Positions 45,693-64,000 of a stretch of 64,000 nt of DNA are shown piece after piece (the stretch's first letter is position 1; each line of letters starts with the position of its first letter). A program made the translations under genes and the position numbers. The DNA lies in the NCBI GenBank assembly GCA_903866625.1, contig CAIPOI010000006.1, positions 62,001 to 126,000 on the forward strand, in the 5' to 3' direction. Source of the DNA: an uncultured archaeon. GTDB taxonomy: Archaea > Nanobdellota > Nanobdellia > Pacearchaeales > GW2011-AR1. The notes below the pieces were generated by a model. It searched no databases. It was not told the origin of the DNA and saw only the letters and a list, made by a program, of their open reading frames with translations.

Positions 45693-45732
45693 TTTTAGAT
45701 ATATTTTTATAGTTTTAAAAAAGTGAGATAGT

Positions 45733-56972: not shown

Positions 56973-57800
56973 TTATAAGCTATCAAGAGGATTCTTAACC
57001 CCTCTTAATTGCTCTTGACTAATATGAGTATATATCTTTGTAGTTTCTACATTTTCATGACCAAGAAGCTGTTGAATGACTAATAGATTTGCTCCATTTT
57101 CTAAAAGATGTGTTGCAAAACTATGCCTTAATGTATGTGGAGAGACTTTTTTGTTTATGCCTGCTTTTCTTGCTAATCGTGTAATAATAGATTGTACATT
57201 TCTTTTTGACATGGGCTCTTTTTCTGAAAAAAGAAAAATATTATTTTGATTTTTACTAAGGTACCTTAGTAACTGCTTGCTTAATCCTTCTGAAATTTGA
57301 AATAATCTATCCTTATTACCTTTACCAGACCTAACCCAGCCAATATGCTGGTTTAAATCTAAATCCTTAACCTTAAGGTTAACTAATTCACTAACTCTTA
57401 GGCCTGAAGAATAAAGCATCTTAACCATTAACTCGCTCTTCTTAAAATCTGCTGCGCCTATAAGTGCTTTAACTTCCTCAACTGAAAGAACTACTGGCAG
57501 TTTCTTCTCTTTTTTTGGAACCTCTAGTTTAACATATATATCTGAACGCTCTACTACTCTTCTAAAGAAGAATCTTAAACTAGAGATGGCTAGAGACCTA
57601 GACTTCTTGCTGTACTTATCTATCAAACTAGCTGAGAAAGATTCCACACTATCAAGACTTATTGTTTCAGGATTATCAATTGATTCAAGAAAGGGTTTCA
57701 AAAAATAAGTATAAGAGCTTATTGTGTTTTCACTTAGCCCCCTAAGTTTAAGACGGGTTTTTGTCTTATCTAGATACTTAGCTACCTCTTCTTTTTGCAT
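56973..57800 (-). CDS. xerA: XerA-type tyrosine recombinase
   Basis: A 275-residue integrase-family recombinase from the ATG at 57800 (a GTG at 57824 gives 283). The SAM-like N-terminal domain is followed by the catalytic domain with all expected residues: R135 in SSGLRVSEL, K160, H222 and R225 in SPHTLRHSFATHL, H248 in QLLGHEN and the nucleophile Y257 in TTKIYTHI. Archaeal XerA resolves chromosome dimers at a dif site; integrase use is also possible. It borders the unusual 57.8-61.8 kb region. Confidence 0.93.
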   Translation of the reverse strand: MQKEEVAKYLDKTKTRLKLRGLSENTISSYTYFLKPFLESIDNPETISLDSVESFSASLIDKYSKKSRSLAISSLRFFFRRVVERSDIYVKLEVPKKEKKLPVVLSVEEVKALIGAADFKKSELMVKMLYSSGLRVSELVNLKVKDLDLNQHIGWVRSGKGNKDRLFQISEGLSKQLLRYLSKNQNNIFLFSEKEPMSKRNVQSIITRLARKAGINKKVSPHTLRHSFATHLLENGANLLVIQQLLGHENVETTKIYTHISQEQLRGVKNPLDSL

Positions 57801-57983
57801 GCTAAAACTACTAAGAAACCCCACTTTTTAAACCTATGCATCTAATCCACATTAGGCGAATGTCTTACACATAAATATCCTTTTTACGAGAAAAACGCAG
57901 AAATGGGCCTAATTTCGAAGAAAATCCTAGCAGTTAACCTGTATTGTGCGAAGGTTTAGGTTATTTTGGGAGTTTTGTAGAAG

Positions 57984-58220
57984 TTAAGGAAGAATTAGAT
58001 CTACAAATCTGCCATCAACTTGACTTAGAGGCCTCTGATCTTTAGGACTCTTCTCCTTAGCTGAGCTTTGTGCAAAGGCAAGCATGCCTTCTTTTGCTAC
58101 ACAAGCTTGACCGGTGTGATTGCAAGTAAAATCTTCAAGATTAGAATAGTTGCATCCTCTTGCAGCAACTCCTGAAATAAAAGTTCCTATGAAAGGGCAG
58201 TAATATCTTTTTGGGTCCAT
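57984..58220 (-). CDS. Small Cys-rich protein (I)
   Basis: A 78-residue protein with four Cys in the first 40 residues (YYCPFIGTF, ARGCNYSNL, FTCNHTGQACVAKEG), a plausible zinc or disulfide set. Not recognised. It is one of three short Cys-rich genes in a row on this strand; it and the third share an upstream sequence element. Confidence 0.6.
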   Translation of the reverse strand: MDPKRYYCPFIGTFISGVAARGCNYSNLEDFTCNHTGQACVAKEGMLAFAQSSAKEKSPKDQRPLSQVDGRFVDLILP

Positions 58221-58254
58221 AGAGTTTATATTTTAATTAGGTCAATTTTGAAGT

Positions 58255-58584
58255 TTATTTATGTCTTCCATTAAAGGGAGGTTGCGAAGGTTTTGTTAAA
58301 CCGTGAAAAAAATTATGAACCGACATAGAGTTTCTTGCAGCGACTTCTAAGGGTATTCTTGACTCAGAACCCTGATTTGAGCACTTAGGTGAGCTTGGTG
58401 CAGAATTACCTCTGTCAATAGCAGTCTTTAGAGTATAACCCCAAACGCATTCATTACCTAAACTAATAGTAGCACCCTCACTAGAACCTACATAACAAAC
58501 CCTGCAGGAATAAGCTGCTTTGTTTGGAAAGGTGGTATATCTCCAACATTCTATGCCGCAATGAAGTGGTTTTTTAGGAGCCAT
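58255..58584 (-). CDS. Small Cys-rich protein (II)
   Basis: A 109-residue protein with Cys pairs in the first third (LHCGIECWRYTTF, SCRVCYVG) and two later Cys (NECVWG, PKCSNQG). Not recognised. The C-terminal part is rich in Ser, Asn and Pro. Confidence 0.55.
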   Translation of the reverse strand: MAPKKPLHCGIECWRYTTFPNKAAYSCRVCYVGSSEGATISLGNECVWGYTLKTAIDRGNSAPSSPKCSNQGSESRIPLEVAARNSMSVHNFFHGLTKPSQPPFNGRHK

Positions 58585-58593
58585 TTTATAAAA

Positions 58594-58839
58594 TTAAACG
58601 TAACTTACTTGTTTTTTAGACATATAAGATCGAAGTTCTTGAATCGCTTCACCCAAACCAACACAACTAGCTCCGCCTCGATTACAAACTACTGAATGAT
58701 TATCTCCGACGCCAATAGGGCAAGAAAAATGCTTTGCTCCCGGAGTTTCATCTTTTTGAACTGTTAATTTTCCTAAAATATTATGTGCTGAACAGTAAAT
58801 TCTTACAACCAACTCCTTATCTCTTTCTTCAACTGACAT
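58594..58839 (-). CDS. Small Cys-rich protein (III)
   Basis: An 81-residue protein with Cys in IYCSAHNILGKL, FSCPIGVGDN, VVCNRGGASCVGLGEA. The C-terminal end is helical. It is followed on the same strand, ten bases later, by protein II, so they are probably cotranscribed. Confidence 0.58.
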   Translation of the reverse strand: MSVEERDKELVVRIYCSAHNILGKLTVQKDETPGAKHFSCPIGVGDNHSVVCNRGGASCVGLGEAIQELRSYMSKKQVSYV

Positions 58840-59086
58840 AGTTAAACTTATTCTAAAGTTTATTTAAAGATTATGGTGATAAAAAGAGAGTATTAAATAT
58901 ATAGGACTAGAATCATTAAAAGATAATCTGCAAAAACCTTTGGTTTTTGCCAAAAAATGGGGTTGGGGCCCCATTTTTAAATATAAACCCGAGTTTTATG
59001 CACTTAGGTGAAGTTAGTGAATATGCTAAAAAATAGAGTTAAAACTAATAAAAAAGTACTAGAAATAGTAGATCTTAGAATTAAAA
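58840..59086. other. Intergenic region with two adjacent perfect hairpins
   Basis: No gene is visible here. It carries the promoter of the minus-strand Cys-rich genes and two perfect inverted repeats side by side: GCAAAAACC/GGTTTTTGC (58930-58938 and 58942-58950, loop TTT) and AAAAATGGGG/CCCCATTTTT (58953-58962 and 58969-58978, loop TTGGGG). Stems of 9 and 10 bp without mismatch, both rich in A or T on the outer side, separated by two bases. Confidence 0.75.
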
Positions 59087-59254
59087 CTATCGCTTTCTTT
59101 TATTATAATTTCGGGCCAGCTTAGTGACTCCTATAACCAACACTGCTAAAGCTATAATCCAGTTGTTCAGTGTTACACCTAGGTCTAACCCTAACAAGGG
59201 TAGAACTAATAATACTCCAATAAGAGTTACTAGCCAAGCGGTTATTTTTGCCAT
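59087..59254 (-). CDS. Small two-helix membrane protein with a Shine-Dalgarno site
   Basis: A 55-residue protein read from ATG at 59254, with two hydrophobic segments (ITAWLVTLIGVLLVLPLLGL and NWIIALAVLVIGV) and a basic tail (KLARNYNKRKR). AAGGAGGTCA lies about six bases before the ATG, a strong Shine-Dalgarno site that most genes here lack, and a TATA box (CTATATAAAG, 59309-59318 on this strand) stands further up. This decides the start; a longer frame reaches 59353. Function unknown. Confidence 0.7.
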   Translation of the reverse strand: MAKITAWLVTLIGVLLVLPLLGLDLGVTLNNWIIALAVLVIGVTKLARNYNKRKR

Positions 59255-59260
59255 CTTTTT

Positions 59261-59270
59261 TGACCTCCTT
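59261..59270 (-). promoter_or_regulatory. Strong ribosome-binding site of the small membrane-protein gene
   Basis: Read on the minus strand the segment is AAGGAGGTCA, near-perfect complementarity to the 16S rRNA 3' end, about six bases before the ATG at 59254. It shows that this gene has a leader mRNA of about 30 bases, unlike the leaderless majority. Confidence 0.6.
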
Positions 59271-59430
59271 TTTGATAGTTTTTTGATAAAAAGAATAGGC
59301 AAAAGAACTATATAAAGATGGGCTACTTCTAAGAAGTTAAACAAAAATTCCAAGCGAAATTTTGGAGGTTTTGATAGAACTCTCGGGGTTGATTTGGTGA
59401 GATAGATTAAGGCTTTTAGAGTTTTTTGGG

Positions 59431-59536
59431 TGTTTAAAGCAGTTAAACAGTGTTTATCGTCGACGATTTCGGTTGTTTAAAGGTGTTTAAACAGCTGTTT
59501 ATAGTTTTATTTTTGGTGTTTAAACAGGTGTTTAAA
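59431..59536. repeat. TGTTTAAA-type repeats before the 206-residue winged-helix gene
   Basis: Eight copies of a short element around TGTTTAAACA lie upstream of the gene at 59578: 59431, 59442 (reverse), 59451, 59474, 59484 (perfect palindrome TGTTTAAACA), 59496, 59517 (perfect palindrome) and 59529, with the last ones 12 bases apart. The gene TATA box follows at 59547-59556. The same element recurs inside the gene. They look like binding sites for its product (inference). Confidence 0.85.
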
Positions 59537-59546
59537 TTGTAGAAAC

Positions 59547-59556
59547 ATTTATAAAG
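59547..59556 (+). promoter_or_regulatory. TATA box of the 206-residue winged-helix gene
   Basis: ATTTATAAAG is centred about 25 bases before the ATG at 59578, so the mRNA is probably leaderless. The upstream repeats end about ten bases before it, well placed for autoregulation. Confidence 0.55.
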
Positions 59557-59577
59557 ACGGAAAATAGCTATAATATT

Positions 59578-60198
59578 ATGTTTGGATGGATATTCAAAAA
59601 GGTAAAAAAAGAGGAATTTAATAAACACAAAGAGGCAGTTCAAACAGCCTTAAACAGTGTTAAACAGGATATGTCTAGTGTTACTAAATGGATTAAACAC
59701 CTAGATCAGCAGGATTCTGAGATAAAAAAAGAGATGAAAGAGATATTAAGAGATTTATCCTCGATAAAAAATGATATAGAAGAATTGAAAGAAAGCGCTG
59801 TTCAAGAAAAAAGCGTAGAAGAAGCTTTGGTGTTTAAACAACCAACAGGGGTTAAACATAAACAAACAGCCGTTTATGATGTTCAAACAGCTGTTCAAAC
59901 AACCGTTCAAGCAGCTTTTTTTAATAAACTTTCATTATCTGAAAAAGCAATTATTATGATTTTAGCTAATTCTGACCTAAAATTAAGCTATGAAGACCTT
60001 GGAGCTATGACTGGAAAGGATAGCACCACTATAAGAGGTCAGATAAATACTATTAGACAAAAATGCCCAGGTATTATCGAAGAACAAATAGAGAAGAATA
60101 ACAAGAAAAGGCTATATATCCCTGAAAAAATAAGAGGAATCTTACTTAGAAAGGCAAAAGTGAGGCAAAATAGGCCTAAAATAGAAGAAATAGAGTAA
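59578..60198 (+). CDS. Coiled-coil winged-helix protein with intragenic repeats (protein A)
   Basis: A 206-residue protein: a short start (MFGWIFKKVKKEEF), a coiled coil to about residue 75 (IKKEMKEILRDLSSIKNDIE), a low-complexity Gln/Thr/Val linker at about 80-120 and a winged helix from about 118 (LSLSEKAIIMILANSDLKLS, then DSTTIRGQINTIRQKCPGII) with a basic tail. The segment coding for the N-terminal part and the linker contains about ten copies of TGTTYAAACA-like repeats, e.g. 59831-59840 (palindrome) and 59881-59914 with a 12-bp period. Not a known family to me; it may be a replication or segregation DNA-binding protein (inference). Confidence 0.78.
   Translation: MFGWIFKKVKKEEFNKHKEAVQTALNSVKQDMSSVTKWIKHLDQQDSEIKKEMKEILRDLSSIKNDIEELKESAVQEKSVEEALVFKQPTGVKHKQTAVYDVQTAVQTTVQAAFFNKLSLSEKAIIMILANSDLKLSYEDLGAMTGKDSTTIRGQINTIRQKCPGIIEEQIEKNNKKRLYIPEKIRGILLRKAKVRQNRPKIEEIE
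59638..59914. repeat. TGTTYAAACA-like repeats inside the gene of protein A
   Basis: Copies at about 59638-59647, 59650-59657, 59658-59667, 59692-59700, 59831-59840 (perfect palindrome), 59851-59858, 59863-59869, 59881-59890, 59892-59901 and 59905-59914. They encode the repeated VQTA/VKQ-like residues of the linker. Spacing is 12 bases in the last block, so frame is kept. Confidence 0.8.
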
Positions 60199-60636
60199 AA
60201 ATAGAGGCCAAAACCCGAAAAGTGAGAGTTAGCTATACCTTAAAACCAGTATTTTTAAGGCAAAAACAAGGAAAATAGAGTAAAAATAGCTAAAAAAGGT
60301 GGAAAAGTGAGAGTTAGATTAAGGCTAAAAAATAAAGAAAATAATAAAGATTAATCAAAACAGAGGAATCAAGGAAAAGTTAGACTAAAAAGAGAGAGTA
60401 AAAATAAAAAAGAAGGAAAAGTCATAATCAATAAATATCACTAAGTTTAGTCATTTTAGGACTTAAAATCACTAAAAATAAGGTGAAGAGAAAAAAGAGT
60501 GTAGTCTTAGAAGTAATTATAATTCGTTACAACGAAAAACTAAGAAAACTCAAAAATTTGATAAAAAATGAGGGTTTAAGGACTTAAAATACTTAAATCT
60601 GAGGAGATTATAATAAAAAATACTAGAAAAAGAGAG
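60199..60636. other. 438-bp AT- and purine-rich gap between convergent winged-helix genes
   Basis: No gene seen. The plus strand is mostly A and G, with long runs such as AAAAAGAGAGAG and very few C. Two copies of GGAAAAGTGAGAGTTAG-like sequence lie near 60217-60232 and 60301-60318, and two of GGACTTAAAAT near 60459 and 60579. Such strongly AT-rich, strand-biased DNA is what an easily opened origin element looks like; that is inference. Confidence 0.65.
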
Positions 60637-61416
60637 TTAAAGCTCTCTAAGCTTGATAATAGTATCTAAACTTGCTATTTTCTTTAGCTCTAGAGAGATC
60701 TTAAGAAGAATCTTCTTATTATTTAGCTTATTTTTGACTATTGGAACGCCTTTATTAATAAGTCTTTGAACATAATCCCTTATAGAACTAGAAGAAAGCT
60801 TTAATTTCGCAGCAATTTGCTCATATTCTACGCCTTCAGGATAGTTTTGTTCAAGCTCATATATCGTCGAGAAAACCAGCATTTCTTGGTTAGTAATGGT
60901 CTTAAATTTAAGCCTAATCTCTTTTCGAAGAGTATCAAGAGAATTAAGGATTTCTGTAGCGTTTAAAATCTGCTCGTGAAGGTTTTTTGAGCTATTTTCA
61001 GCAGATCTTCGAGTTGTTATTGAACTCCTATTCCAGACTAAATCTGTTGGAGTATCTGTCTGTTGGTTGGTTTGTCTGTCTGTTGGAACCCCCCTATTTC
61101 CTGTGGAACTATCCAAAAACTGGGATTTTAACCCCTTTATTTCTTGTGGAACTGTTGGATTATCTGTTGGACTAATAGTATATGTGGGATTTTGAGACTC
61201 TTGTGTTGGATTATCTGTTGGACTTTTTTGAGTATTACACTCAAATTCTAACTGCATTTGCCTAAGTTTTATAGAACTTATATCTTCGGTTAGTGTAGAA
61301 AATAACTGCTTGAGCTCTAATAAATCTCTTTTTATGAAAGAAATTTCATTAGTTAAGCTAAAAATATCATTTTTTACTCTTTCAAAAGACTCTTTTATGC
61401 CTCTTTCACTAAACAT
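60637..61416 (-). CDS. Coiled-coil winged-helix protein with intragenic repeats (protein B)
   Basis: A 259-residue protein with the same layout as protein A: coiled coil at about 8-60 (RVKNDIFSLTNEISFIKRDL), a linker rich in Pro, Thr, Asn and Gln at about 62-140 (PTDNPT twice, then PTDRQTNQQTDTPTD) and a winged-helix domain from about 170 (ITNQEMLVFSTIYELEQN, then KLSSSSIRDYVQRLINKGVP). Its linker-coding DNA carries CTGTTGGA repeats, different from those of protein A. Similarity of sequence to A is limited to the pattern. Function unknown; replication or segregation is inferred. Confidence 0.78.
   Translation of the reverse strand: MFSERGIKESFERVKNDIFSLTNEISFIKRDLLELKQLFSTLTEDISSIKLRQMQLEFECNTQKSPTDNPTQESQNPTYTISPTDNPTVPQEIKGLKSQFLDSSTGNRGVPTDRQTNQQTDTPTDLVWNRSSITTRRSAENSSKNLHEQILNATEILNSLDTLRKEIRLKFKTITNQEMLVFSTIYELEQNYPEGVEYEQIAAKLKLSSSSIRDYVQRLINKGVPIVKNKLNNKKILLKISLELKKIASLDTIIKLREL
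61043..61224. repeat. CTGTTGGA repeats inside the gene of protein B
   Basis: Exact CTGTTGGA on the plus strand at 61044, 61080, 61152, 61164 and 61215, with near copies at 61060 (CTGTTGGT), 61203 (GTGTTGGA), 61101 (CTGTGGAA), 61145 and 61183. A longer block, GTTGGATTATCTGTTGGACT, occurs twice (61154 and 61205), 51 bases apart. They encode the PTDNPT-type linker. Confidence 0.85.
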
Positions 61417-61477
61417 AATTAGAATAATTTTAAAGTTTATTTAAAGATATAGGTTATAAAAAGAATATTTTGAAGTT

Positions 61478-61750
61478 TTAAGCTCTAGTTTTGGATTGGT
61501 AAACTTGATAGGCTTCAGGCGTTAGTTGCCATCTTAATCTTCGAATAAACATCTGGCCGTTTTCGTTCTTTTTTATTATTACAACTAGATTTTTTTCCTT
61601 TAGGTCAAACATAAGAGACTTGACAAATTCTTCGTCCCGAGCTATTTCCTTAGCGATTTCTGCAGTAAAAAATTGTTTGGGAAAACTATGAAATAATAAG
61701 CTTAGAATTTGCTCTGCAATCTTGTCTCTTTTCTCTTTAGAAATTTTCAT
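61478..61750 (-). CDS. Small winged-helix-like protein
   Basis: A 90-residue protein: EKRDKIAEQILSLLFHSFPK, TAEIAKEIARDEEFVKSLMF, then DLKEKNLVVIIKKNENGQMF, the order of helices and beta-wing typical of a winged helix-turn-helix of the MarR/ArsR type. It could regulate its neighbours. It lies on the same strand as protein B, 62 bases upstream of it. Confidence 0.72.
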   Translation of the reverse strand: MKISKEKRDKIAEQILSLLFHSFPKQFFTAEIAKEIARDEEFVKSLMFDLKEKNLVVIIKKNENGQMFIRRLRWQLTPEAYQVYQSKTRA

Positions 61751-61809
61751 GTTTAGTTTGTAAAACCGAATAACTTTTTAAACCTATGCCAAACTAATTT
61801 TTTGGATTT

Positions 61810-64000
61810 ATGGAAAACTATAAAAACCAAAGAACGGGTAAGCATCTGCTTCTTCATATGACAATAATAAAAAAAGCTAAAGAAAGAGAAACTAAAGATA
61901 TAGTGGCAATCCTGCATCCTCTTGTTAGAGAATGGTTTTTCTCAAGATTTAAGGACTTTAGCCTGCCGCAAAAATATGGAGTGATGAATGTTTGGGAGAG
62001 AAAAAACACACTTATCAGTGCTCCGACAGGAGGTACAAAAACCTTAACAAGTTTTCTTTCTATTATCAACTATCTAGTTATGTTGGCTGAAAAAAACGAA
62101 TTAGAAAATAAAGTCTATGCTCTTTATTGTTCTCCCCTTAAAGCATTAAGTAATGATATCCATAAAAACTTATTAGAACCCCTACAAGAGATAAATAAAC
62201 TGGCAGAACAAAAAGGGATCGAACTTCAGGAGATAAGGGTTGGTTTGAGAACAGGGGATACAGAATTAAAAGAAAGAGCAAAACAGGCTAAAAAGGTACC
62301 TCATATATTTATTACTACGCCTGAAACTTTAGCTATAATTTTAACAACCCCGAAATTCATAGAAAATCTAAAGGCAGTAGAGTTCTGTATAGTTGATGAA
62401 ATCCATGCTTTAGATAATAAAAGAGGGGTTTATCTTAGTCTGACTCTTGAAAGACTTAATGCTGTAAGTGTAATCTGGCCTGTAAAAATAGGATTGAGTG
62501 CGACTATTGAACCTCTGGAAGAGGTTGCAAAGTTTTTAGTTGGAGAAGCAAAAGAGAGAGAAGTAGAAATAGCTAATGTTCAATTCACAAAAAAGATAGA
62601 TATTGCGGTTTTAACACCTGTAGAAAATTTGGTTGAGGATAGAAATGTTAGTCATAGCATGTATTCTCTTTTGAATAGATTAATTAAAGAACATAAAACT
62701 ACGCTGATATTTACTAATACAAGGAGTGCTACTGAAAGAGTAGTAGACAATCTTAAAGAGAAATTTCCTACAGAATATGGAGAAGATATCGCTGCACATC
62801 ACTCTTCACTATTCAAGACCCATAGATTTAGCATAGAAGAAAAACTAAGAAAAGGAGAGTTGAAAGTGGTGGTCTGTTCAACTTCACTTGAATTAGGGAT
62901 AGATATTGGATTTATTGACTTAGTTATAATGCTCGGTTCTCCCAAATCAAGTGCAAGAGCAATACAAAGATTAGGAAGGGCAGGACATAAACTGCATGAA
63001 ACTATAAAGGGCAGGTTTTTAGTTATGGATAGAGATGATTTAGTTGAGTGTTGTATTATTCAAAAAGAAATTATAGAACATAAAATAAATCGAGTGCAAT
63101 TTCCAAAAAACTGTTTAGATGTTCTTAGTCAGCAGATATTTGGTATGGCTATAGCAAATAATTGGCAAGTAGACCAACTTTTAGAAACTATAAGGAAAAG
63201 TTACTGTTACAAAGATTTAACAAAAGATGACTTTTATTCGGTTTTAAGCTATCTTTCTGGAGAATATGGTTTAGAGGATAGCCATGTTTATGCAAAAATT
63301 TGGTATGATAAAGAAAAAAAAGAAATAGGTAAACGGGGGAAACTAGCAAGAGTCATATATCTCACAAATATTGGAACAATACCTGAAGAGAGTTTTGTAG
63401 CTGTAAAGCTTTCTCCAAGTGGCGAGCAGATAGGGTATATTGATGAAGGTTTTTTAGAAAGAATGAAAAAAGGGGATGTTTTTGTTTTAGGCGGGCAGAG
63501 ATATCTTTATCTTTATACAAGGGGTATGAATCTTTATGTAAAGGCAGGAGTAGACAGGGCACCAACAATCCCTAGTTGGTTTTCTGAAATGTTACCTCTT
63601 AGTTTTGATTCTGCTTTAGAAATGAATAGGTTTAGACAGTTGATAAGAGAAAGGTTTGAAAAAAAAGAAACAGAGAGAGAAATATTAGAATTTATTTCTA
63701 AGCATTTATATGTGGATGAAAATACGGGGCGGGCAATTTATAGTTATTTCAAAGAGCAATTTAATTATTTTGAAATTCCTGACGCAAAAACCATAACTAT
63801 TGAGAGGTATAAAGCGGAAAAAAATTATATTTTAGTTAGTAGTCTGTACGGTAGAAGAGTAAATGATGCGCTTTCTAGGGCCTTAGGTTATATTATGGGT
63901 AAATATGGTAATAGAGATGTTGAAATGGGTATAAGTGATAATGGTTTTTATTTTGCAGGAGAATCTTTAGATATAGAAAAAGCATTTAAAGAATTAAAAG
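61810..64000 (+). CDS. lhr: Lhr-type ATP-dependent helicase (5' part)
   Basis: A reading frame from ATG at 61810 runs to the window end (about 730 codons seen; Lhr proteins are 850 residues or more). Helicase motifs: APTGGTKT near residue 71 (motif I), SPLKALSNDI (Ia), TTPETL (Ib), DEIHAL near 196 (II), LSATI (III), FTNTRSATE (IV), STSLELGIDIG (V) and QRLGRAGH (VI). The following part fits the Lhr core. Lhr unwinds DNA and DNA-RNA forks in repair. Motif I lacks the usual Gly before Lys (TGSGKT here TGGTKT). Confidence 0.92.
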   Translation, partial: MENYKNQRTGKHLLLHMTIIKKAKERETKDIVAILHPLVREWFFSRFKDFSLPQKYGVMNVWERKNTLISAPTGGTKTLTSFLSIINYLVMLAEKNELENKVYALYCSPLKALSNDIHKNLLEPLQEINKLAEQKGIELQEIRVGLRTGDTELKERAKQAKKVPHIFITTPETLAIILTTPKFIENLKAVEFCIVDEIHALDNKRGVYLSLTLERLNAVSVIWPVKIGLSATIEPLEEVAKFLVGEAKEREVEIANVQFTKKIDIAVLTPVENLVEDRNVSHSMYSLLNRLIKEHKTTLIFTNTRSATERVVDNLKEKFPTEYGEDIAAHHSSLFKTHRFSIEEKLRKGELKVVVCSTSLELGIDIGFIDLVIMLGSPKSSARAIQRLGRAGHKLHETIKGRFLVMDRDDLVECCIIQKEIIEHKINRVQFPKNCLDVLSQQIFGMAIANNWQVDQLLETIRKSYCYKDLTKDDFYSVLSYLSGEYGLEDSHVYAKIWYDKEKKEIGKRGKLARVIYLTNIGTIPEESFVAVKLSPSGEQIGYIDEGFLERMKKGDVFVLGGQRYLYLYTRGMNLYVKAGVDRAPTIPSWFSEMLPLSFDSALEMNRFRQLIRERFEKKETEREILEFISKHLYVDENTGRAIYSYFKEQFNYFEIPDAKTITIERYKAEKNYILVSSLYGRRVNDALSRALGYIMGKYGNRDVEMGISDNGFYFAGESLDIEKAFKELK

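Follow-up and report, generated by a model that had tools for sequence, protein, structure and literature searches.

We analyzed a stretch of 64,000 nt from an uncultured archaeon of the Pacearchaeales (lineage GW2011-AR1; assembly GCA_903866625.1, contig CAIPOI010000006.1, positions 62,001 to 126,000 of the forward strand), hereafter the window, focusing on a pair of convergent genes near its end, A and B. The assembly holding the window comprises 725.6 kb in 8 contigs and is 89% complete. Relatives that carry names are mostly metagenome-assembled genomes of Candidatus Pacearchaeota and Nanoarchaeota. A preliminary description, made from the letters of the window, had assigned both proteins a coiled coil, a linker and a winged helix, had noticed short DNA repeats in the linker-coding part of each gene, and had proposed an origin or partition system with sites built into initiator genes. 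The proposed layout is borne out by the open reading frames (ORFs; Table 1) and by structure models. Protein A is predicted to form a helix (residues 3-83), a region with predicted local distance difference test (pLDDT) values below 50 (84-111) and winged-helix elements (113-189). For protein B the corresponding parts are a helix (4-61), two regions with pLDDT values below 50 (66-111 and 121-138) and a winged-helix part (146-258).

Table 1. Features of the A/B locus (window coordinates)
Feature	Position	Strand	Remarks
TGTTTAAACA-type palindromes plus half sites, arrayed upstream of A	59431..59538		exact TGTTYAAACA copies at 59484, 59517
Gene A	59578..60198	+	206 residues; aromatic/basic N-terminus, coiled coil, disordered linker, winged helix
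Repeat array in A linker-coding DNA	59831..59913		exact TGTTYAAACA copies at 59831, 59880, 59892
AAAGTGAG copy in the 3' end of A	60157..60164	+	codons of the KVR tail
A-rich gap between the 3' ends of A and B	60199..60636		438 bp; AAAGTGAGAGTTA copies at 60219 and 60304 (+ strand)
Gene B	60637..61416	-	259 residues; coiled coil, disordered linker, winged helix
Short tandem array of ACAG/ACAA/CCAA units	61041..61086	-	B linker codons, right after the G-string of the box; 4-bp period in relatives
Origin recognition box (ORB)-like box GTTCCACAGGAAATAGGGGGGTT	61087..61109	-	B linker codons, read as S-T-G-N-R-G-V; Orc1/Cdc6 site type; differs at 3 positions from the published common ORB (20 bp compared)
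Second ORB-like box GTTCCACAAGAAATAAAGGGGTT	61130..61152	-	43 bp from the first box; other frame, V-P-Q-E-I-K-G; 2 mismatches to the published common ORB
Further CTGTTGGA/TGTTGG copies	61152..61222	+	in B linker codons

Homologs of A and B were identified in 116 and 115, respectively, of the 138 genomes of the family (E ≤ 0.001). From the 116 genomes with A we fetched 100 loci, ranked by match score. The named-locus set consists of the best 80 of 164 loci with flanks of up to 10 kb, and overlaps the 100-locus set in part. In all 100 fetched loci B lies on the opposite strand past the 3' end of A, the two open frames being separated by 55-782 bp. Such conservation of a convergent pair suggests that something is held in cis. 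Within the phylum, the A profile matches 110 of 236 genomes; since many of these matches are weak, and often cover the coiled coil alone, the distant relatives of A are uncertain. Among 20 distant loci, a relative of B is present in 15, convergent with A in 10 and on the same strand in 5; in L333, L335, L339, L343 and L344 no B relative was found in the stretch examined. No relative of A turned up when viral contigs were searched by pattern.

Profile and structure searches were of limited use for assigning a function. Structure searches returned only generic winged helices (MarR, SlyA, CodY and ArsR types, with winged-helix chains of ORC among tied rows) and pointed to no specific function. 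Several profile matches have a replication flavor: DnaD_N in 16 of 33 B members (alongside HTH_36 in 19 and HTH_11 in 18), a weak RPA_C match in one of the 33, the window's own B, and DnaA C-terminal models on A (E-values of 0.027 and 0.0017). We did not build on any of them, because they are weak or common to generic helix-turn-helix (HTH) models.

The linker-coding part of B holds two ORB-like boxes, which the preliminary description had missed. Both were compared with the common ORB regular expression published in Table 1 of PMC4164010. We counted as an ORB-like box in B a 23-bp sequence with at least 16 of the 23 bases in agreement. By this definition, the coding strand of B carries a box in 99 of the 100 loci, and in the single exception (L154) B is cut by the contig end. 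Mismatches to the published regular expression numbered 0, 1, 2, 3 and 4 in 14, 29, 27, 24 and 5 loci, respectively, whereas one dinucleotide shuffle per locus yielded a single 4-mismatch match in all. At the same box threshold, 17 of the 100 loci have two boxes in B, 43 bp apart in 12 of these. The box is also present inside B in 14 of the 15 distant loci with a B relative, L346 having a B without it. Binding of Orc1 to ORBs is established in other archaea, and, judging from the likeness of the sites, Orc1/Cdc6 may well bind the strong intragenic box in B. In a few relatives (L078, L082, L109, L110 and others), an extra ORB-like box was seen on the + strand, slightly upstream of the start of A and facing the B box. 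In the window, an ORB-like stretch upstream of A near 59347 was dropped, having about 8 mismatches by eye.

When 14 whole genomes of the family were searched for ORB-like sites, allowing at most 3 mismatches, 30 matches were obtained, which by their coordinates fall in B (15), upstream of orc1 (11) or elsewhere (4). The reversed control gave 7 matches, and one genome (G001) had no ORB-like match.

The box in B is followed by a short, G-poor tandem array. In the DNA after the box the mean self-match at lag 4 is 0.64, compared with 0.31 (standard deviation 0.07) for 885 windows elsewhere in B; among lags 1-11, lag 4 or 8 scores highest in 97 of 99 loci. After the distant boxes (n = 14) the best lag is again 4 or 8 in eight cases, with other units (TCAC, GCAC, TCAA), and 9-11 in the remaining six, some with units such as TTCGACA. 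Other repeats also occur in B. CTGTTGGA occurs 8 times in the window (expected 1.19 ± 1.20), 5 of the copies being in the B linker, and among the 100 loci GTCTGTCTGT is confined to B, where it is found in 84. The repeats that had been reported in the linker-coding part of B are present, but the view that they are chiefly iterons of B's own is not supported, since they include Orc1/Cdc6-type boxes and the short tandem array.

Codon usage also bears on these sites. The serine codon of the box is TCC in 99 of 99 loci, whereas in the rest of B only 221 of 1,959 serine codons are TCC. At the wobble position, the box codons TCC, GGA, GGG and GTT keep their base in 99, 99, 96 and 99 of the 99 loci, respectively; the asparagine codon ends in T in 85 loci and in C in 14, both of which the published box allows. 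Moreover, the reading frame of the box is not constant: within the family 104 boxes are read as S-x-G-N and 12 as V-P-Q-E, and in two distant families (L341, L342) the sole box is in the V-P-Q-E frame. A similar bias is seen in the VQT triplets of the A linker (100 relatives), which use CAA in 246 of 250 cases versus 529 of 828 elsewhere in A, and ACA in 235 of 250 versus 493 of 875. The fixed wobble bases and the changed reading frame show that selection acts on the DNA, and the linker-coding DNA of both genes is under such selection. The sequence of the protein linker seems to be molded by the DNA sites it has to accommodate. In the VQT frame the full palindrome TGTTTAAACA would contain a stop codon, which may account for the form TGTTCAAACA that the repeat takes in coding DNA. 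It might be argued that these are just low-complexity linkers, disordered and repetitive as they are, with repeats that arose by slippage and have no function as DNA. We consider this very improbable, because it is contradicted by the fixed wobble bases, the frame change and the ordered repeats with fixed strand and place, and equally by the non-coding copies of the A motif and the match to the published ORB.

At gene A the repeats are of a different type. The TGTTYAAACA-type repeats noticed earlier in the A linker include three exact copies (Table 1), and the eight copies counted upstream of A are recognizable by eye if looser half sites are allowed. When up to 2 mismatches were allowed in three motif forms, 950 bp at this locus held 15 matches, and the remaining 63,050 bp of the window held 175. 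The exact 10-mer has 11 distinct places in the whole 725.6-kb genome, 5 of them at this locus, compared with 3 matches of a reversed control pattern. If the window is taken as a whole and two mismatches are allowed, the motif shows hardly any enrichment (295 versus 268 ± 16.5, a level reached by 6 of 100 shuffles). Therefore, it is the cluster at A that counts. The same cluster is seen in the 100 loci, where the density of TGTTYRAACA is 2.4/kb in the 400 bp upstream of the open frame of A, 2.9/kb in A and 0 to 0.06/kb elsewhere. In a search of 14 genomes, 17 of 22 exact TGTTYAAACAGC matches are at A; five genomes have none, and the 4 matches of G096 lie elsewhere.

The preliminary description suggested looking in relatives for a repeat that differs between families yet keeps its place, and this is indeed what the 20 distant loci display at A. 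The motifs of these loci were chosen after inspection, with the rest of each locus as control; an automated motif search returned poor motifs in several of them. The repeat is mostly palindromic and specific to lineages: TGTCCAAACA in L328-L332, GTTCATGAAC or AACG[AT]TCAA in L333, L334, L336-L338 and L340, and CGTTATAACG (L344), ACGCGTC (L345), GTTAACT (L347) and others in the rest. In 12 loci it lies inside the open frame of A (L336 has only a single exact copy); 5 loci have it solely or mostly upstream, and 3 have it, as it seems, immediately downstream. The change of repeat seems to follow the recognition helix of A. In family f47, three members from one genus have the helix STIRGQIN and the repeat TGTCCAAACA, while L337, from another genus, has the helix ITVRRHLN and the GTTCATGAAC/AACG[AT]TCAA type of repeat, like the members of other families with that helix. 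This pattern fits, though it does not prove, binding of A to its own repeats. The earlier suggestion that each protein reads the repeat in its own gene thus seems plausible for A, whose repeat changes with the recognition helix, but not for B, whose boxes are of the Orc1/Cdc6 type.

The concentration of the repeat at A within the genome would also be expected of local autoregulation, in which A and B are ordinary winged-helix repressors with operators spread into their own coding sequence, and the Orc1 boxes only tie the expression of B to Orc1. The MarR-like folds, generic as they are, would suit such repressors, and the upstream array lies, by eye, just before the likely promoter of A. However, operators account neither for the conservation of a convergent pair next to orc1, nor for a tandem array anchored at the box end, nor for sites placed deep in coding sequence across families. 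We therefore regard this explanation as unlikely.

A third type of repeat, also missed in the preliminary description, occupies the 3' end of A and the gap, which is A-rich. AAAGTGAG is found on the + strand of the window at 60157, 60219 and 60304, with another copy at 45720. Among the 100 loci it occurs on the + strand in A in 91 and in the gap in 75, its reverse complement being never found there; elsewhere at the loci its density is at most 0.05/kb on either strand. The longer AAAGTGAGAGTTA is within chance in the window alone (9 versus 5.18 ± 2.33 at two mismatches), so that the case for it rests on relatives. In most relatives, AAAGTGAGAGTTA-type repeats are present on the + strand in the gap (60199-60636 in the window) and in the codons of the KVR tail of A (60157).

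We then considered the neighborhood of the pair. An orc1/cdc6 gene scores above the family cut-off in 120 of the 138 genomes (136 at E ≤ 0.001, a level that also matches bacterial controls). In 40 of the 80 named loci orc1 lies 1,154-7,547 bp past B, always on the strand of A, and in 34 of these 40 it is directly followed by the gene for the PolD small subunit (both gene names were checked on two loci). Upstream of orc1, 36 of the 40 loci have at least one weaker ORB-like match, and 14 have matches on both strands (position weight matrix score of 14 or more, scanned with no shuffled control). In the window's genome, orc1 is preceded by an ORB-like site with 4 mismatches. In the span running from 1,500 bp before A through orc1, the 100 bp of lowest duplex stability are within 500 bp upstream of orc1 in 35 of the 40 loci, between B and that upstream stretch in 4, upstream of A in one, and in the A/B gap in none.

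These data bear on whether the A/B pair could itself be the start site, with the box and tandem array of B loading MCM and the DNA opening at these sites or within the gap, in the manner of lambda O. The boxes in B are mostly nearer to the consensus than those upstream of orc1 (G048 is an exception), and the locus has several repeat types that are ordered and strand-specific. Against this stands the position of the least stable DNA, which was never in the gap and in most loci was upstream of orc1, where the weaker boxes are. We consider a start site at A/B improbable. The earlier idea that the AT-rich gap opens is not supported, and the gap was rejected as the unwinding element on the grounds of duplex stability, a measure of stability only and not of opening. 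In phage lambda, iterons lie in the linker-coding part of the O gene. Gene A is comparable in that it has a repeat array in its own linker-coding DNA, with a repeat that changes with the DNA-binding domain; its role as an initiator would be putative. In contrast to lambda O, the genes form a convergent chromosomal pair next to orc1/cdc6, the main boxes of B fit Orc1, and the adjoining gap is not the least stable DNA.

Taken together, these observations suggest that A and B probably constitute a conserved origin-linked module next to orc1/cdc6, in which an A/B complex would control initiation or hold the origin region. That origin-type sites are built into the linker-coding DNA is the well-supported part of the original proposal, given the boxes in 99 of 100 B genes and the repeats in A. 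In the mechanism that we envisage, Orc1/Cdc6 would bind the strong intragenic box in B, while A would bind its own array as a coiled-coil dimer. Jointly they would form a nucleoprotein complex beside an unwinding region, which probably lies upstream of orc1, between the weaker boxes. The complex may control initiation by loading, by titrating or by timing via the high-affinity Orc1 site; alternatively, it may, through A, hold or position the origin region as an origin-proximal handle. The disordered linkers would be places that tolerate any peptide the sites encode.

A number of observations weigh against this interpretation. Of the genomes with a completeness of 90% or more and little contamination (n = 16), 14 had an A match and 13 a B match, leaving 2 and 3 without one. 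In four genomes of other families, searched whole with up to 3 mismatches, just one of three ORB-like matches fell in B. Sharing of the C/T base between the repeats of the linker and those upstream in the same genome did not reach significance (21 informative genomes, p = 0.2). For the other 40 of the 80 named loci, the available stretch showed no orc1 gene. In the window's genome orc1 is at the start of contig C5 (C5:381-1514) and A/B near the end of C6; because orc1 starts another contig, their linkage there is deduced from relatives. Since the least stable DNA is upstream of orc1, the pair may be only a satellite of the origin. Finally, in three genomes, each sampled as 20 stretches of 8 kb that cover 26-30% of its contig, GC skew made no turn at the locus, and an origin signal was absent from the GC, AT, RY and MK skews alike; GC and AT skew moved together, as if set by gene direction.

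The N-terminus of A raises another possible role. A simple rule (at least 4 hydrophobic residues in positions 2-8 and 2 K/R in 5-12) is followed by 61 of 99 A proteins and by none of 87 B proteins. This N-terminus allows a membrane or partner anchor, membrane binding being a guess. Bacillus Noc and RacA are DNA-binding proteins that couple chromosomal sites to the membrane, and A resembles them in its aromatic/basic N-terminus. Their sites are scattered, in contrast to the exact TGTTYAAACAGC repeat of A in the 14 genomes, and any domain in common with A would be putative. A related explanation is an origin-proximal centromere, with A as a partition or tethering protein on its own array and its N-terminus on the membrane or a partner. 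A coiled coil and a winged helix combined with a local site cluster would suit this, as would the N-terminal pattern of A and weak ParB-HTH profile matches in 3 of 34 A members, whereas a Pfam scan (E ≤ 0.001) listed no ParB N-terminal (CTPase) domain for any of the 34. We view the centromere as a doubtful but not far-fetched role. None of these explanations excludes the others or the origin-linked module.

One of the closest described systems is the oriC1-type archaeal origin, in which ORBs stand beside orc1/cdc6 (PMC4010727 and PMC4164010). Common to both are the box type (TCCA..GAAA....GGGGT), the orc1/cdc6 neighbor, an unstable stretch with weaker boxes ahead of orc1, and a gene for the PolD small subunit after it. 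What sets the module apart is that its strongest box sits within linker-coding DNA of a different conserved gene, with a short tandem array behind it. The oriC2 of Haloarcula hispanica has a downstream cluster of ORBs with a suggested role in titrating Cdc6 (PMC4010727), likewise a case of additional Orc1 sites near but outside the unwinding region; here, however, the sites are intragenic, in one or two copies, and kept across many families. UBP of Sulfolobus origins, a 111-residue nucleoid protein, is a further DNA-binding protein with its own site (ucm) at an archaeal origin, but its sites number over 300 in the chromosome (passages of PMC12141716), while the A repeat is clustered at its own gene. 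The print literature on DPANN origins seems sparse, and the passages considered here on DPANN origins or ORBs in coding sequence describe no such module.

If this interpretation is right, two unnamed, widely kept protein families of very small genomes gain a likely origin role. Ori-Finder 2, as described, scans intergenic sequence, and origin predictors limited to such DNA would miss the boxes in B. The pair also offers testable cases of overlapping selection, in which DNA sites prescribe a disordered linker, and of co-evolution between a DNA-binding protein and the sites that its own gene contains. A more far-reaching version, which we put forward only tentatively, is that across many families of one DPANN class the gene pair is a cis-acting scaffold for origin control. 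In it, A would be a self-addressing, coiled-coil and possibly membrane-bound protein with co-evolving sites in and around its own gene, B would hide a high-affinity Orc1 box and tandem array as a loading or timing element, and the two linkers would in effect be written by the origin.

The surroundings of the pair in the window have some features of their own. An Rfam scan of 59000-61900 gave no match. Directly upstream of B there is a 90-residue ORF (61478-61750, - strand) with weak winged-helix profile matches. Three neighboring small ORFs at 57984-58839 (- strand) encode similar cysteine-containing peptides without a clear Pfam family. Near the module, at 56973-57824 (- strand), lies a gene for an archaeal XerA-type tyrosine recombinase (NCBIfam recomb_XerA_Arch, over the cut-off). 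On its other side, the module is adjoined by a large ATP-dependent helicase gene (61810-63999, + strand; NCBIfam PRK13767, over the cut-off), which continues past the end of the window.

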